NCBI RefSeq assembly: GCF_009856865.1
Contig: NZ_WVUD01000035.1
Span: 1 to 41,191 of the forward strand
Origin: Solidesulfovibrio aerotolerans
GTDB taxonomy: Bacteria > Desulfobacterota > Desulfovibrionia > Desulfovibrionales > Desulfovibrionaceae
DNA: 41,191 nucleotides
Direction of reading: 5' to 3'
Shown here: positions 8,010-16,666 of the stretch, piece by piece
Layout of the letters: the number at the start of each line of letters is the position of its first letter
Position numbering within the stretch: position 1 is the stretch's first letter
Position numbers and translations under genes: made by a program
The notes under the pieces: generated by a model
Database searches by the model: none
Told to the model about the DNA's origin: nothing
What the model saw: the letters and a program-made list of their open reading frames with translations, nothing else

Positions 8010-8597
8010 TTAACCGGCGGCCAGGGTGTCGATGGCTCCGAGCAGCGAATCAAACGACGAGAGGCTGAAGATGATGAGCACCTCGCCGTCAATGAGGTGG
8101 TCTTTCATGCTGAACTGGGTGCTGGCCACCAGGATCATGCCGGTGCCGGTGCCGATGATGGAGGCGATGTCGGATTCGAGGTAGTCCGGGGGCGAATAGC
8201 GCAAAGGTTCGCGCAGGATATTGGCGATGGAGCCCATGACGCCGTTGAGCACGATATTGCCCACTTCCTGCAAGGTGGCCGTGCGCATGCCTTCGTCTTC
8301 GGGCATGGCTCCCTGGCCGAGCACCACGCGCACGAGCTTGGAGGCGGAATCGGGCGGAAAAATGAGCGCGCTTATGCCGGCGAATTCGCCGGTAAACGAG
8401 AGCTGTACGGCAGAAAAGATCGAATTGGACCGGGCGGCATACTGGTCGGCCAATTGCCCGGGGGTCAAGACCCGCAGGACCGGCACCTGGAGCTGGATGT
8501 GGGTGTTGACCATCTGGTTGAGCATGCCGGCGGCCCGGCCGACCCCGATATTGATCAATTCCTGGATGATGTCGAGCTGCAAGGAGGTAAGCGGCAT
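8010..8597 (-). CDS. CheC-like chemotaxis phosphatase
   Basis: This 195-residue protein has two copies of the CheC/CheX phosphatase motif ExxN: the first in D9-xxx-E13-xx-N16, the second in LQEVGN near residue 108. Between and after them lies the CheC alpha/beta core. Such proteins remove phosphate from CheY-type receivers. The gene lies 19 bases downstream of a CheY-like gene in the same direction, so its likely substrate is that receiver. The ATG at 8595-8597 begins the family-typical MPLTSLQLDIIQE segment; the frame is open farther upstream but overlaps the receiver gene and reads as nonsense there. Confidence 0.85.
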   Translation of the reverse strand: MPLTSLQLDIIQELINIGVGRAAGMLNQMVNTHIQLQVPVLRVLTPGQLADQYAARSNSIFSAVQLSFTGEFAGISALIFPPDSASKLVRVVLGQGAMPEDEGMRTATLQEVGNIVLNGVMGSIANILREPLRYSPPDYLESDIASIIGTGTGMILVASTQFSMKDHLIDGEVLIIFSLSSFDSLLGAIDTLAAG

Positions 8598-8616
8598 GGC
8601 AGTGTGGGCCTTTTCG

Positions 8617-8970
8617 CTAGACAAGGGCTGCAAGGGTTTGGCGCAAGACGCCCATATCGACGGGTTTATTGAGGAACACGCAGGCCCCGAGTTCCATGCA
8701 GCGCGCCCGGGTGGTCTCCTGGATGTCGGCCGTAACCACGCAGATACGGATGCCCGGCAGTTCCCGGGACAAGACTTCCATGACCGCGATGCCACCCGGA
8801 TCAGGCATGTTGAGGTCCAGGAGCAGGGCGTCGGGACGGTGTTCCCGCACGATGCGCAGGCACTCTTCGCCGTCCTTGGCCTCAAGGACGGTGAAGCCGG
8901 CCTCTTTGGCTATTTTTGACGCCTGAAAACGCTGGAACATGGAATCGTCGGCAATGAGCAGGGTGGGCAT
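8617..8970 (-). CDS. CheY-like single-domain response regulator
   Basis: A 117-residue receiver domain with no output domain. The acidic pair D8-D9, the phospho-acceptor D52 (LLLDLNMP), T80 (VVTAD) and K102 (LNKPVD) are all in place. It lies 79 bases after a hybrid kinase and 19 bases before a CheC-type phosphatase, all on the minus strand. The set reads as kinase, receiver and phosphatase: the HPt domain of the kinase is a plausible phosphate donor for this receiver. Lacking an output domain, it would act by protein contact, as CheY does on the flagellar motor. Confidence 0.9.
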   Translation of the reverse strand: MPTLLIADDSMFQRFQASKIAKEAGFTVLEAKDGEECLRIVREHRPDALLLDLNMPDPGGIAVMEVLSRELPGIRICVVTADIQETTRARCMELGACVFLNKPVDMGVLRQTLAALV

Positions 8971-9049
8971 GGCGGTTTTCCTGTACCAGCCGTCGGGGGC
9001 TGGAGTGGGCGCAAAGGGTTGACGGTTTGGGCACGGCGTCCAGGCGGCG

Positions 9050-12000
9050 TCACATCTGGCCGCAGCAAACGTGGACGGCGTGAAAAGCTTGTATGAGTTG
9101 GCGCAACAACAGTTCTGCCTGTTCGTTTTGTCGCGTGTTGCCGGCGCGTTCCAGGGCGGCGGCCAGTTCCTGGCACCGGGCAGCACCGATGGTGGCGGCC
9201 GCCGACTTCATGGTGTGGGCGTGCAGGGCCAGGCCGGCCATGTCGTGCCCTGCCAGGGCGTGGCCGGCCGCCTCCAGGCGTTTTTCAAACTCCACCAGGG
9301 AGATGGAAAGGATGGGGGCAAACGTCGCCTGATCGACGCCCAGGCGCGTGAGGGCCCATTCCACATCCAGCACCCCCTGGGGGCCGGGAGGGCAGGCCGG
9401 TTCTGTGTGTGGCGGCGGTGTCCGGGCTGGTTCAGGCGAAGTGTCCCCGGGCGATGCGTCCCCGGTCTGGGCTGCCGGTCGGGCCAGGCGTTCGATTGTC
9501 AGGGCTAACTCCTCGAGATTGATCGGTTTGCCGAGATACGCGTTCATCCCGGCTTCGACGCAGGCCTGGCGCACCTCTGTGGAGACATGGGCGGTGACGG
9601 CCACGATGGGTACCTGCGGATTGAACACCGGCGCATCAATGCGGCCGCCGGCCCGGATGAGCCGGGCGGCGGTAAGACCGTCCATGGACGGCATCTCAAT
9701 GTCCATGAGCACGAGATCGAAGTCGGTATCGGCCAGGGCCGCCAGGGCGGCCTCGCCGGAGGTGGCGGCCACGGCCTCGTGCCCGAGCTTATGCAGATGG
9801 ATGTCCATAAGCTTGATATTGACCGGGTTGTCCTCGGCCAACAGCACCTTAAGGCCCCGTCTGGCGGGCTTGGGCGCTTGGAGGTGGTCGGCCGTATCGT
9901 TGGTCTGGCAGCCCGCGACCAGGGGAACGGACAGGGTGAAGCGGCTGCCCTTGCCCGGGGTGGAGGCCACCCGGATCTCGCCGCCCATGAGCCGGGCCAG
10001 ATCGCGGCTGATGGCCAGCCCCAGGCCTGAGCCGCCGAAGTGCCTGGCCGTGGAATTGTCGGCTTGGCGGAAGCTCTCGAAAATGATGTCGCTAAGTTCC
10101 GGCTCGATGCCGATGCCGGTGTCGGCCACGGAAAATTCCAGCCGGGCGATGCCGTCCGGGGCAGGGCAGGCATGGCAGGCCCGCAGGGACACACCGCCGC
10201 TGGCGGTAAATTTGACGGCATTGCCCACGAGATTGACCAGAATCTGGCGAACCTTGCCCGGATCGCCGCAGACCTGATGGGGAACACCCGGGGTGATATC
10301 CAGGCTGAGCCACAGGCCTTTGTCCCGGGCCGAGACCTCCAGGGTCTTGACCACGGCGCGCAGCACCGCATGCAGATCGTAATCCACCAGCTCCAATTCC
10401 ATCTGGCGGGCCTCGATCTTCGAGAAATCCAGAACATCGTTTAAGATGCCCAGCAGATGCCGGGCCGCTTCGTGGACGGTCTCCAGATAATCGCGTTGTT
10501 CCGGCGAAAGCGCGGTGCCAAGCGTCAGGTCGGTCAGGCCCAGGATGGCGTTCATGGGCGTGCGGATTTCATGGCTCATGCTGGCCAGGAAGCGGCTTTT
10601 GGCCTGGTTGGCCCGGTCGGCCTCCTCCTTGGCCGCGTGCAGGGCGGCCAGATTGCGGCGGCGTTCCACGCCAAGGGCGAGCTGCTCGGCCACGGACAGG
10701 AGCAGTTCCGCCTCCTTTTTGCCGAACTGGGCCGGATTGGAATAATGGCGCACCGCCATGACCCCGAGCACTTCCTGGCGCACCCGGATGGGAACCCCCA
10801 GCCAGATTTCAGGGGTGCGTCCGGGACAGGTCAAGCCGGTCAGCCGCATCACCCGGCGGGTGACCAGCAGGGGGTGGGCCGTGCGCATGACCTCGACCAG
10901 GACGCTGGATTCCTTGAAGTCGCTGAAATTGTCTTTGGTCAGGGGGATGATCCGGTTGTTCAGGCCGGTGATGGGCGGCGGCTGGGACTCGGATTGGCTG
11001 GTAAACAGGGCGTAGTCCAGGCAGTCGCGTTCCCGGTCGGCCAGGGCAATGCAGAATTCCCGGACATCGAGGGCCTCGCCCAGGATGTTGCGGATGGCCG
11101 CGAACAGGCTGTCCATGTCCTCTTCCGTGGCCACGGCGCTGGAGACCCGATACAAAAGGGAAGTGGTCTTTTCGCTTTCCCGCAATTCCTCCACGGCCAG
11201 CCGCGTGTCGGTCAGATCGCGGGCGCTGACCACCACGCAGCGCAGATCGGGGTTTTCCTCGGACCAGGGCGAATAATGGATGGACAGATAGCGGCGGCCC
11301 AGGGCCGGCAGCGTCACCCAGCGGTCGAAATGGACGTTTTTCCCGTTCATGCACTCGGTCAGACGCGGGAGCAGCACTTGTTTGACATAGTCCGGGTCGA
11401 GGAACTCCGCCACGTTGTGCCCGATAATGGCCTCGCGCGGCCGGCCAAAGACGCGCACATAGGCGTCGTTGACGAACAGATAGACGCCCTGCGGGTCCAT
11501 CAGGCTCACCAAGTCTGAGGAGGCGGCAATGATGCGGGCATAGCGGCGCAGATATTGTTCGGCGCTGTCTATGGCCGAGCAGTCCTGCACGAAATGTTCG
11601 AAATGAAGCGTTTCGCCCTGGGGGTCGCAAACGGCGCGCACTTCCCGCCGGGTGGCCAACTCTGTCCCGTCACGCTGGCGCATGACTGTCTCGAATCGTT
11701 CCAGCCGGCCGGTCTCGGCCAGTTGCCGTTCCAACTCGTGGCGCCGAACAGGATCGGCATACAGCTGGCCGCCGATGTCCGTGACGGTCTGCATCAGCTC
11801 TTGCGGCGAATCATAGCCGTACAGGCTGGCCAGGGCGGCATTGGCTTGCAGATAACGCCCCTGGGGCGTGCTGAGGGCAATGCCTAGCGGGGCATGGTCA
11901 AACACGGCGCGATAGCGGCCCTCCCGCAGCGCCAGATCGGTATTTTCCCGGTTCAGGCGTTCAATGGCCCGCTCCAGCCGGACCGTCCGCTCGCGCACCC

Positions 12001-12637
12001 GGCGATCAACCAGCGCGGCCTCGGTGCGGACCATGCGCTCCAGGCGGTACGGCTCGGACACGTCCACAAGCACGCCCGTGCCCATCACGTCCTCGCGGTC
12101 CTTGCCCACAAGCTCCAGCACCAGACTGCCGTGCCGCGTTTCGCCGTTGTGGCGGCAAAACAGCACACCCAGGGCCTGGCGGTCGCCAGGAGCGGCCAGG
12201 GCGGCCCAGGCCGCCCTGGCCGCATCGAGACTTTGGGGAAACACCCCTTCAAAAAAAGTCAACGCCGCTTCCTGGCGCGCCTTGCCGCCATGGCCAAGCA
12301 GCCGCCGCAACGACGCCGCCGCGCGGATCAGGTCGCTGCCCAGCCGCCAGGAAAACACCCCCAGCCGGGCATGGGCCGCAGCCCAGTCGATGGAGGCGTC
12401 CAACGCGTCTTTCTCGCCCCGGCCAAAAAGAAACAGCACCGCCGGGTCCACTTCCAGGGCCAGACAAAAGGCCTCAATGACGGCCAAAGACGGTGCGGCC
12501 GCCCCGCGCTCCACTTTGTTGCAATGTTCCAAGGAGATGCCGGACCGCTCAGCCAGCGTGGCCTGGGTCAGGCCGCGCAACCGTCGCAGATGCCGCAATC
12601 TGCGGCCGAGAATATGGCTGAAATCAGTCCGGTCCAT
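9050..12637 (-). CDS. Hybrid histidine kinase with N-terminal XRE DNA-binding domain
   Basis: A 1195-residue soluble protein. An XRE/Cro helix-turn-helix occupies about residues 8-68 ([15 protein letters not shown] then VERGAAAPS). A weak PAS-like region (about 85-195) and a coiled coil (196-238) follow, then PAS at 239-355, PAS at 362-480 and GAF at about 490-655. The kinase core has HisKA with His689 in SHEIRTPMN and a HATPase ([19 protein letters not shown]). It ends in a receiver with acceptor D979 and an HPt domain with His1141 in HTMKSAA. No membrane helix is seen, so it senses a cytoplasmic signal. It probably starts the operon with the CheY- and CheC-like genes. A perfect palindrome sits 43 bases before the start codon, where the protein's own XRE domain could bind. 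The ATG at 12637 has an AAGGA Shine-Dalgarno. Confidence 0.93.
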
Positions 12638-12679
12638 ACGTCCTTCCCGCGGGCAGCCCCGCGCCTGGATGTATTAAAA

Positions 12680-12700
12680 ACACGTAACGACATTACGTGT
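12680..12700. promoter_or_regulatory. Perfect palindrome upstream of the XRE hybrid kinase
   Basis: ACACGTAA-N5-TTACGTGT, two 8-base arms with no mismatch. Read on the minus strand it fills the space between a TTTACA and a TTTAAT, a possible promoter for the kinase operon. It also lies within 150 bases of the divergent binding-protein gene at 12830, so it could control either or both. Confidence 0.7.
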
Positions 12701-12768
12701 AAAGCCTTTCTGACCCGTCGCGGCTGCTCGCCAAAAATAACATAAATACCTGTTTATGAAGGAAATTG

Positions 12769-12804
12769 TTGACATCGGTTGACATGGATGCTGTAGAATA
12801 TATG
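12769..12804 (+). promoter_or_regulatory. Candidate promoter(s) of the TupA-like gene
   Basis: Two TTGACA boxes lie ten bases apart (12769-12774 and 12779-12784), with TAGAAT (12794-12799) and TATGAA (12801-12806) downstream. Spacings are 19 for the first pair and 16 for the second, so the active combination is unclear. Confidence 0.45.
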
Positions 12805-12829
12805 AAAATAGTATTCCGGAGGACTCGCC

Positions 12830-13675
12830 ATGCGCCTGCTCAGTCTCGTGACCCTGGCCCTGTGTCTGCTCACCGCCACCGCCCAGGCCGGCCCCAAGGC
12901 CGAAGAAAGTTATGGTCCCGGCCCCCAGACCTTCACCCTGGCCACCGGCAGCCCCGGTGAACTCGGACTGCTCAAAGTCCTCGGCGAAAGCTACTGCACC
13001 CCCAAAGGCTGCCGCCTGGACTGGGTCAAAGCCGGTTCCGGGCAATCCCTTGATCTGCTCAAAAGCGGCGAAGTGGACATGATCATGGTCCATGCCCCGG
13101 CCGCCGAGAAAAAAGCCGTGGCCGACGGCTGGGCCGGTTGCGCAACACTCATAGGCTCCAATGAATTCTTTATCGTCGGGCCGGCCAGCGACCCGGCCGG
13201 CATCGCCAAAGCCACCACCGCCGCCGACGCCTACAACAAGATCGCCAAAGCCCAGGCCAAATTCTTCTCGCGCGGCGACAACTCCGGTACCCACAAAAAA
13301 GAAATGGATACCTGGAAAGATGCCGGTCTCGAACCTGCCGGCGACTGGTACGTGGTCACCAAAGCCTTCATGACCGCCACACTCAAACGCGCCAACGACG
13401 AAGGCGGCTACTTCATGACCGACAGCAGCACCTGGGCCGCTGAAAAAAACAATACCCCCAAACTGGCAATCCTCTTTTCCGGCGACAAAAAACTCGTCAA
13501 TACCTACCACGCCCTGTGCCGCCAAACCGACGGCAAACCAGCCTCCGAACTGGCCACAGGATTTATAGCCTTCGTCGCTTCCCCCCAAGGCCAGAAAATA
13601 ATCAATACCTTCGGCAAAGACGCCCACGGCGAAGCCCTCTACAACGACGCCGCCTACGCCAAAAAATACGAGTAA
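12830..13675 (+). CDS. TupA-like periplasmic oxyanion-binding protein (orphan)
   Basis: A 281-residue exported protein with a signal peptide ending in TAQA (residue 20). The body matches the tungstate-binding TupA family: VHAPAAEKKAV, NEFFIVGPASDPAGI and SRGDNSGTHKKE are family landmarks. The usual TTTST-type anion-binding loop near the N-terminus is replaced here by ATGSPGELG, and a Cys pair (CTPKGC) has been inserted nearby, so the ligand may differ from tungstate. No permease or ATPase gene is adjacent, which is unusual for a binding-protein-dependent importer; it may serve a transporter encoded elsewhere or act as a sensor. The ATG at 12830 has a GGAGGA Shine-Dalgarno. A tandem palindromic repeat begins five bases after the stop. 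Confidence 0.8.
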   Translation: MRLLSLVTLALCLLTATAQAGPKAEESYGPGPQTFTLATGSPGELGLLKVLGESYCTPKGCRLDWVKAGSGQSLDLLKSGEVDMIMVHAPAAEKKAVADGWAGCATLIGSNEFFIVGPASDPAGIAKATTAADAYNKIAKAQAKFFSRGDNSGTHKKEMDTWKDAGLEPAGDWYVVTKAFMTATLKRANDEGGYFMTDSSTWAAEKNNTPKLAILFSGDKKLVNTYHALCRQTDGKPASELATGFIAFVASPQGQKIINTFGKDAHGEALYNDAAYAKKYE

Positions 13676-13680
13676 GGCTA

Positions 13681-13835
13681 CCGGGGCGTTGCCCCGGCCC
13701 CCTACCGGGGCGTTGCCCCGGCCCCCTACCGGGGCGTTGCCCCGGACCCCACCGGGACGCCGTCCCGGACCCTGCCAGGGCGCTGCCCTGGACCTGCCGG
13801 GGGGCGACGGCCCCCCGGACCCCCTGGTGGGGTAG
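13681..13835. repeat. Six tandem palindromes (REP-like array)
   Basis: Six GC-rich palindromes start at 13681, 13705, 13729, 13752, 13775 and 13797, with a period of 23-24 bases. The first three are identical (CCGGGGCGTTGCCCCGG). Units 4 to 6 differ, but both arms of each changed together (GGGACG/CGTCCC; AGGGC/GCCCT; GGGGGG/CCCCCC), so every unit still folds. Each is followed by a short C-rich linker resembling that of other copies in this window. It follows the TupA-like gene directly and may stop transcription or protect its mRNA. Confidence 0.9.
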
Positions 13836-14074: not shown

Positions 14075-16666
14075 CTACAGCCCAAGGAGCCGGCGCACGG
14101 TGGTGAGGCCCAGGCTGGCTTCGATGACGTCGGCCAGCCGGTCGAGTGCCGGTTCCAGGTCATAGGTCGTCACGCGCTCCACCGTCTCCAGCCCCCGCCG
14201 CTGGCGCAGGCCGTTGCAAAAGGCCCGGCGATAGGCGTTGGCGTCGAAAATCCCGTGCAGATAGGCCCCCCAGACCGGGAGGTCGGACCGGGCGTAGCCG
14301 ATGGGTTCGCCGTCGGCGCGGCGCACGGCCACAGCCAGGCCGTCCCCGGGCGTGGTCCGGCCGTGGTGGATCTCGTAGCCGGAAAGGGCCAAGCCGGTCG
14401 GTTCGTGGACGGCGTTGGTCAGGGCCAGGGTTTTTTCGGCGGCCAGGGTGGTCCCCAACGGCAAAAGTGCCAGCCCTGCCGCCTCGCCGCGCCCGGATTC
14501 CAGGCCCAGCGGATCGCCCACTGTCGCGCCCAGCATCTGCAAGCCGGCGCAAAGTCCCACCACCTCGGTCTTCCCCGTGCCGGCCAAGGCCAAAATGGCG
14601 TCGGCCAGTCCCGTTTCCCGCAACCAGGCCAGATCGGCCAGGGTGTTTTTGCTGCCGGGAATGACCACGGCGTCGGGCTGGCCCAGGAGTTGGGCCGTGG
14701 TCACCCGGCGCGCCCGGACATCGGCCTCCACGGCAAAGGCGTCCAGGTCGGTGAAATTGGACCCGTGGGGCAGATCGATGACCGCGATGTCCAGGAGGTC
14801 GGCCCGCTCAGGCGGCGTTTCGGGCAGGGCGCCGCCATCTTTAAAAGTCACCGAATCCTCTTCCGGCAACCCCAGATCGGGCAGAAACGGCACGACAGCC
14901 AGTACGTCGCGTCCGGTGCGTGCTTGTAAAAAGGCGTTGGCCGGGGCGAGCAGCGTGGCGTCACCCCGGAAGCGGTTGAGCACATAGCCGGCAACCAAAG
15001 CCCGCTCATCCTCGGGCAGGCATTCCATGGTCCCGAGCAAGCCGGCATAGGCTCCGCCCCGGTCGATATCGGCGGCAAGGAGTACCCGCGCCCCGGCATG
15101 GCGGGCCATGGCCATGTTGACGATGTCGTGGGCCTTTAAATTGACTTCGGCCGGGCTGCCCGCACCCTCGATGACCATGACGTCGGCGGTGGCGGCCAGG
15201 GCGTCGTAGGCAGCAACGGCGGCGGCAAAGGCGGTGGGTTTATAATTGATGTACTCGCCCACCCGCATGGTTCCGACCGGTTTGCCAAGGACAATGACCT
15301 GGGAGCCGAGATCGGAGGTGGGTTTGAGAAGTATGGGGTTCATGCGCACATCCGGGGCCAGCCGGCAGGCCCTGGCCTGGACGATTTGCGCCCGGCCCAT
15401 TTCCAGGCCGTCAGCCGTGACCCCGGAATTGAGCGACATGTTTTGGGATTTAAACGGGGCCACGGTATAGCCGGCCCGGGTGAGCAGGCGGCAGATACCG
15501 GCGGTCAGCACGGATTTGCCGGCGTTGGAGGTCGTGCCCTGGAGCATGAGTGCCGGGGCGCGGCGTTGGGGCCGAGAGGCCGGCAGGGGGCAGGCGTTAA
15601 GAACCTGGGCCAGACCGTTGACGATGCGCTCGGTTTCGGCCTCGGGACGCACGGCCAGACGCAGATAGCGGTCGGAGAGGCCGGAAAAATTGGAGCAGTC
15701 GCGAAGGGCCACGCCGTGCTCGACCAGCATACGCTGGCAGACTTCCGGGGCGTTGGGGCCGGTCAGGGAAAGCCGGGCCAGCAGGAAATTGGCTGCGCCG
15801 GCAAAGACCGTCAGGCCCAGGGAGGTGAGGCCAGCGGCCAAGGCGTCGCGCAGGGGCGGCAGCGCCCGGCGGGTGGCGGCCAGATAGTCGGCGTCGGCCA
15901 GGGCGCGCGCGCCAACCGCCTGGGCCAGGGAACCCACCGACCAAGGGGGCAGGGTGCGGCGCACCCAGTCGGCCAGATCGGGGCTGGCGGCCAAAAGGCC
16001 CAGGCGCAGGCCCGGGATGGCAAAGCTTTTGGTCAGCGAGAGCAGTACGGCCACGTTATGGGGCCGGGTGCCGGCCAGACTGTGAAAATCGGGGACGAAA
16101 TCGGCAAAGGCCTCGTCCACCACAAAAAGGCTCTGGGGATGGCGGCCGGCCATGTCCACGATGGCGGCGGCATCGGCCACAAGGCCTGTGGGGTTGGCCG
16201 GGCTGGCGATGATGACCAGGGACGGCGAGCGCAGGACCGCTTCGATGCGCTCGGTGTGCAGGGCAAAGCCGTCGAGTTCCGAACCGGGCAGGCGGCGCAC
16301 GTCCATGCCGGCCTTGTGGCAGGCCACGGCGTAGTCGGCGTAGGCCGGGGAGGGGATGACCGCCCGGGCCAGACCGGTGCAGCGGGGCAGGGCGAAAAGG
16401 AGCTCGCTGGTGCCGTTGCCGGCCACGAAATGCGAGGCTGGCGCGCCGTAGCGGGCGACGGCGGCGGCAATAAGCTCGGTTGCTTCCGGGTCGGGATAAT
16501 GGACCAGTTCGGCCACGCCGGCGCTTAACACGTCGCGCAGCCAAGGGGGCGGCCCCAGCGGATTGATGCTGGCCGAGGCGTCGATGATCCCGGCAGGGGG
16601 GCGGCCGCTGGCAGCGGCCAGGGCGCGCAGGTTGCCGCCGTGGGGAGAGGGCTGGTTGTTGTTCAC
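14075..16666 (-). CDS. cobQ: CobD-CobQ fusion: threonine-phosphate decarboxylase / cobyric acid synthase
   Basis: One 863-residue protein joins two steps of cobalamin synthesis. Residues 1 to about 365 are a PLP enzyme of the CobD/HisC aminotransferase fold (substrate part [13 protein letters not shown] lysine K213 in [13 protein letters not shown]), expected to make aminopropanol phosphate from threonine phosphate. Residues 370 to the end are CobQ, which amidates adenosylcobyrinic diamide to cobyric acid: the ATP-binding GTTSNAGKS loop (377-385), then [10 protein letters not shown], and a class I glutamine amidotransferase domain with Cys706 (GLCAGLQ) and His804 (YLHGIF). The start is the GTG at 16666, whose GTGA overlaps the stop codon of the upstream Cache gene. 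No cobalamin riboswitch is visible upstream of the gene group. Confidence 0.92.

Follow-up and report, generated by a model that had tools for sequence, protein, structure and literature searches.

The window analysed here is a 41,191-nucleotide stretch of Solidesulfovibrio aerotolerans DNA (contig NZ_WVUD01000035.1, positions 1 to 41,191), in which a preliminary description had singled out a histidine kinase that carries its own XRE DNA-binding domain and has a palindrome at its promoter. The interval concerned, 8010–12700, contains the kinase gene and two further genes on the same strand, for a receiver and a CheC/CheX-like protein. The kinase, its N-terminal domains and the palindrome, a candidate operator, are located as follows.

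9050..12637, minus strand: XRE-PAS-hybrid histidine kinase, 1195 amino acids, ATG start (open reading frame, Pfam domains, motifs)
12425..12637, minus strand: XRE DNA-binding domain of the kinase, residues 1-71, recognition helix at about residues 36-43 (LEHCNKVE) (Pfam, model)
11918..12367, minus strand: N-terminal PAS domain of the kinase (about residues 91-194) and long helix (194-239) (AlphaFold2 model, PAS/LOV matches)
12680..12700, no strand: candidate operator palindrome ACACGTAA-N5-TTACGTGT (pattern search of window and genome, comparison across genomes)

A probably soluble hybrid kinase with an XRE head

Computational domain analysis gave the order XRE-PAS-PAS-PAS-GAF-HisKA-HATPase-REC-HPt, and the combination of these domains in one chain, as previously described, was borne out by Pfam. 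Matches were obtained for HTH_31 (residues 10-67), HTH_3 (14-67), PAS in two stretches, GAF (507-655), HisKA (679-743), HATPase_c (791-906), Response_reg (931-1048) and Hpt (1109-1185). An additional PAS domain at about residues 91-194 was missed by Pfam and seen in the AlphaFold2 model (mean predicted local distance difference test score, pLDDT, 91.6), where PAS/LOV matches span the same residues; the long helix that follows is probably a coiled coil. Both the Pfam match and the predicted model give the N-terminal domain a five-helix XRE fold with a helix-turn-helix, which speaks against the objection that the N-terminus might not fold as XRE.

The kinase motifs are intact, with the H-box SHEIRTPMN at 688, the N-box at 802 and DTGIGI at 839, as are the receiver motifs LVLMDIEMP at 975 and YLGKP at 1034 and the HPt motif HAHTMKSA at 1139. 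Judged by the residues generally regarded as catalytic in HisKA, HATPase and receiver domains, the protein is, at the level of its sequence, a hybrid histidine kinase. Hydropathy analysis revealed no transmembrane-like stretch; the highest 19-residue mean, 1.92, was found for residues 53-71 within the XRE domain. Named relatives of the kinase occur in Solidesulfovibrio magneticus assemblies and in Desulfovibrio sp. DV.

Conservation of the palindrome and its association with the XRE head

With its spacer, the palindrome reads ACACGTAA-CGACA-TTACGTGT, and is thus the perfect 8-N5-8 repeat noticed before at 12680-12700. Its position upstream of the kinase stood up to recounting; the gap to the start codon is 42 nucleotides, not the 43 first given, and the gap to the ATG of a divergent gene at 12830 is 129 nucleotides. 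Allowing up to three mismatches, the palindrome is the sole match in the window, with none in 100 shuffles. The genome search that had been suggested revealed no second place within two mismatches; at three mismatches there are two further places, for a total of 3 compared with 10 per strand for a reversed-pattern control.

The palindrome was found with up to two mismatches in all 14 genomes of the genus, the same 14 that carry the kinase N-terminus (cut by the contig end in G006), so it is not missing before close orthologues, an absence that would have told against the idea. Its end lies 38-42 nucleotides ahead of the kinase start across these genomes (from coordinates, and read directly at most loci). 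In the 14 aligned sequences the commonest base has a mean share of 100% and 98% in the two arms, compared with 61% in the spacer and 57-58% in the flanks. One genome, G012, has a second palindrome of the same geometry with slightly different arms (ACACATAACACTGTTATGTGT; L118:4235-4255, two mismatches), and no XRE-PAS head was listed at that locus.

Among 348 genomes of the order, the palindrome with at most one mismatch occurred in 16, once in each, namely in the 14 genus genomes and in G114 and G115. Every one of these 16 sites precedes an XRE-PAS gene of the class with an SLEH recognition helix. The reversed control pattern was found in 10 of the 348 genomes. G114 and G115, which have the exact palindrome, and G055 and G049, which match at 14 of 16 positions, represent two genera other than that of the window, and in all four the divergent gene is LivJ-like.

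These genomes also bear on the question of whether the palindrome might act at the RNA level, as an intrinsic terminator or attenuator on the kinase strand. A terminator scan did call it terminator-like (nine pairs, a loop of three and a T-rich tail; one found compared with 0.3 expected in shuffles). However, only three of the pairs are G-C, and the T-run past the palindrome is missing in G115, in G049 and, on the kinase strand, in G114. Moreover, the arms are fixed in sequence within the genus, where the sole change, in G010, breaks a pair and is not compensated. We therefore give the RNA-level explanation hardly any credence.

In the wider family, 307 genomes of the order were searched with an XRE-PAS head profile; 103 were positive, many in the PAS part only. 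From the fetched loci, 73 distinct heads were gathered, identical XRE sequences being counted once. Heads with an SLE helix matched the window palindrome at 14 or more of the 16 positions in 17 of 18 cases (13 of these 18 heads belong to genus members, and the class received its name once the sites were known), whereas none of the 55 heads with other helices exceeded 11 of 16. This computed association of site and XRE class supports the view that head and palindrome form one specificity pair with a single site per genome. The central idea of the preliminary description, that the palindrome is the site of the kinase's own XRE head, thereby gains comparative support.

The operon and the divergent gene

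The genes next to the kinase are listed below.

8617..8970, minus strand: stand-alone CheY-like receiver, 117 amino acids, without a DNA-binding domain (Pfam, NCBIfam)
8010..8597, minus strand: CheC/CheX-like phosphatase, 195 amino acids (Pfam CheC and CheX)
12830..13675, plus strand: TupA-like periplasmic binding protein, 281 amino acids, divergent from the kinase and sharing its control region (Pfam PBP_like_2)

The receiver and CheC/CheX-like genes trail the kinase in 11 of 11 genus loci of sufficient length (13 were fetched, two of which end at contig edges). Against the NCBIfam CheC model the CheC/CheX-like protein scored 56.7 bits, under the cut-off of 250. The sole NCBIfam match of the divergent protein was NF041772 TupA, with 125.8 bits; since the cut-off is 400, the protein was not assigned as TupA. 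The next scanned gene beyond it, at 14075-16666 on the minus strand, encodes an aminotransferase-CbiA-glutamine amidotransferase fusion; thus, no transporter partner was identified adjoining the tupA-like gene (the search did not extend to the remainder of the window). Directly after the tupA-like gene, at 13680-13800, lie GC-rich tandem-like repeats with units like ctaccggggcgttgccccgg.

A close tupA relative occupies the divergent position in 13 of the 14 genus genomes. The exception, G004, has kept the kinase and a perfect palindrome; its best tupA relative (E 2.8e-44) lies elsewhere, and none adjoins the kinase. In seven of the 13 genus loci, those where the scripted scan met the ATG, the palindrome lies 129-137 nucleotides before the tupA start.

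The shared divergent control region, the 129 nucleotides to the tupA-like ATG and the presence of this gene in 13 of the 14 genomes would all fit a palindrome that serves as operator for some other regulator, one that controls the tupA-like gene and responds for instance to tungstate or molybdate, with the kinase merely sharing the region. Yet G004, which has no close tupA relative at this position, retains a perfect site together with the kinase, and in G114 and G115 the perfect site stands beside a LivJ-like neighbour. Furthermore, the core ACGTAA-N5-TTACGT was absent from the 250 nucleotides before all ten tupA relatives from outside the genus. A separate regulator of this kind is thus very unlikely, and a tungstate-regulator site of the TunR/ModE type was rejected as a candidate on the same three observations: G004, the LivJ-like neighbours and the tupA relatives.

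A second alternative keeps the kinase as the binding protein and makes the divergent transport gene its target, autoregulation being incidental. The nearly fixed distance to the tupA ATG speaks for it, as does the fact that G055, G114, G115 and G049, whose sites match in at least 14 of 16 positions, also face a substrate-binding-protein gene, the LivJ-like one. On the other hand, the site is retained in G004 without a tupA neighbour, and the site likewise keeps a nearly fixed distance from the kinase start. We consider it unlikely that control of the transport gene is the principal role of the site; the tupA-like gene is a possible second target of the kinase head. LivJ-like substrate-binding-protein genes divergent from SLEH-type XRE-PAS genes were seen at L107:3770-4975 and L110:3851-5098 and, in L150 and L152, ahead of the XRE gene. 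Taken with the window, the arrangement in G055, G049, G114 and G115 suggests a repeated link between SLEH-type XRE-PAS regulators and genes for substrate-binding proteins.

Between the palindrome and the tupA-like gene, at 12730-12770, lies a second element that is TTATGTCA-like on the kinase strand. It is partly conserved in the tupA-bearing genomes of the genus and was not seen in the tupA-less G004; TATGTC or GACATA occurs upstream of three of ten tupA relatives from outside the genus. Possibly this element is a separate control site for tupA.

The wider XRE-PAS family, the proposed mechanism and known systems

The XRE-PAS head is not confined to kinases. Among 18 relatives examined with Pfam, eight had a kinase ATPase domain and ten did not (at E ≤ 1e-4 or 1e-6, where weak kinase matches could escape). 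The proteins at L184, L189 and L191, of about 220 amino acids, consist of the XRE-PAS head alone, while those of G114 and G115 have XRE with PAS domains only, share the SLEH helix and are preceded by the exact operator palindrome. Since the exact operator precedes kinase-less XRE-PAS genes, it appears to be independent of the kinase part, and so the XRE-PAS head would act as a one-component regulator that, in the window, has been joined to a kinase. In a phylum sample of 394 genomes, the family was found at E ≤ 1e-40, a strict cut with at most seven candidates scored per genome, in at least four genomes, all from the window's own taxonomic family and including the genome of the window itself.

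Several other recognition-helix classes share the 5-nucleotide spacer and differ in their arms: AAACAAAC/GTTTGTTT (TMQY), ACCCGAAC/GTTCGTGT (TEEY), AAACAACC/GGTTGTTT (SLQY) and AAACAAGA/TCTTGTTT (TKQH). These sites were chosen by a motif trained on the same sequences and are illustrative. In an untrained dyad test, 29 XRE-PAS clusters (60% identity, first member, at least 180 nucleotides upstream) were compared with 174 GC-matched non-coding windows, the loci being fully masked. Spacer-5 dyads with at least seven of eight pairs preceded 10 of the 29 clusters and were present in 14 of the 174 controls (Fisher p 3.9e-4), and perfect ones preceded four clusters and no control (p 3.5e-4), both values being uncorrected for the 12 spacers tried. 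A motif search scored 49.9 at spacer 5, 41-47 at nine other spacers and 10-21 in eight mononucleotide shuffles; because other spacers score nearly as high, it was not used as support.

Taken together, we think it likely that a soluble, cytoplasmic hybrid kinase with a working XRE head binds the palindrome and autoregulates the kinase-receiver-CheC operon. Several observations weigh against this reading. Among the SLE-class heads, L109 lacks a good site (11 of 16). In the dyad test, the next highest counts came from spacers 1 and 3, each with 7 of 29 clusters compared with 14 of 174 controls and with dyads that can have the same centre as spacer-5 dyads, and from spacer 10, with 7 of 29 compared with 21 of 174. 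The family-wide motif reached a modest cross-validated area under the curve of 0.69, with 0.49-0.64 at four other spacers, and for the TKQH class (AAACAAGA arms) only two of the four exact sites in the 307 genomes precede XRE-PAS genes. The proposed survey of palindromes before XRE-PAS genes thus had a divided outcome: it was positive for 17 of the 18 SLE heads and for some other classes, and many other XRE-PAS clusters have no clear palindrome before them. Spacing cannot tell which gene is served, given that the site also keeps an almost constant distance from the tupA-like start at the loci where this was readable. Finally, a sigma-70 scan of 12600-12900 gave no consensus promoter, so the overlap of the palindrome with the kinase promoter is an assumption.

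In the scheme that we infer, comprising dimerisation, binding, autorepression, signal and phosphate route, a kinase dimer held by its PAS, coiled-coil and HisKA segments would bind the single 8-N5-8 palindrome 42 nucleotides upstream of its own start and autoregulate the kinase-receiver-CheC operon. Our guess for the sign is autorepression, which is favoured because the palindrome lies closely ahead of the start codon, in the region expected to hold a promoter. The divergent tupA-like gene may also feel the bound kinase. The PAS domain adjoining XRE would provide the signal input to DNA binding, and we assume the same for those XRE-PAS relatives that have no kinase. At the same time, phosphate would pass from the kinase to its own receiver and HPt domains and also to the CheY-like receiver, with CheC as the phosphatase acting on the latter.

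A broader proposal, which we put forward tentatively, is that XRE-PAS one-component regulators of this order have been joined to kinases, so that the kinase itself may be a transcription factor whose operator occupancy is gated by the PAS signal or by the autophosphorylation that drives the phosphorelay. One molecule would then read the signal, reset its own gene dose and phosphorylate the CheY-like receiver. Were this true, a kinase that remained at its own promoter would couple the amount of sensor to the state of the sensor. One-component and two-component signalling are commonly regarded as distinct designs; this family spans XRE-PAS alone, XRE-PAS-PAS and the XRE-PAS-hybrid kinase, so that the transition between the two designs can be tested. 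A natural specificity series is offered by the recognition-helix classes, whose arms differ while their geometry is shared. In the literature covered (titles and beginnings of abstracts, few of them from subscription journals), no XRE-PAS histidine kinase was recognised as binding its own promoter; the architecture may well be present in domain databases.

Three known systems invite comparison. Restriction-modification controller proteins such as C.AhdI and C.Esp1396I consist of a single small domain, with no sensor or kinase. In the MmyB/MltR family of one-component regulators (PDB 3pxp), a PAS-like ligand-binding domain lies behind an N-terminal XRE domain, the crystals contain a dimer, and pseudo-palindromic sites have been suggested for MmyB (PMC3406030). 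The same structure was among the matches of a fold search, and the window protein likewise has an N-terminal XRE domain followed by PAS. MmyB/MltR regulators are XRE plus PAS-like proteins without a kinase, their PAS-like domain has extra helices and they are found mainly in actinomycetes (PMC3406030); the window protein, in contrast, has kinase domains in Pfam. The hybrid two-component systems (HTCS) of Bacteroides unite sensor, histidine kinase, receiver and DNA-binding domain in a single chain and have a periplasmic sensor, a C-terminal AraC-type domain behind the receiver and direct-repeat sites (PMC3878776). Pfam order and hydropathy give the window protein neither a C-terminal AraC domain nor a periplasmic sensor: it lacks a transmembrane-like stretch, and its DNA-binding domain is of the XRE type, N-terminal and placed beside PAS.

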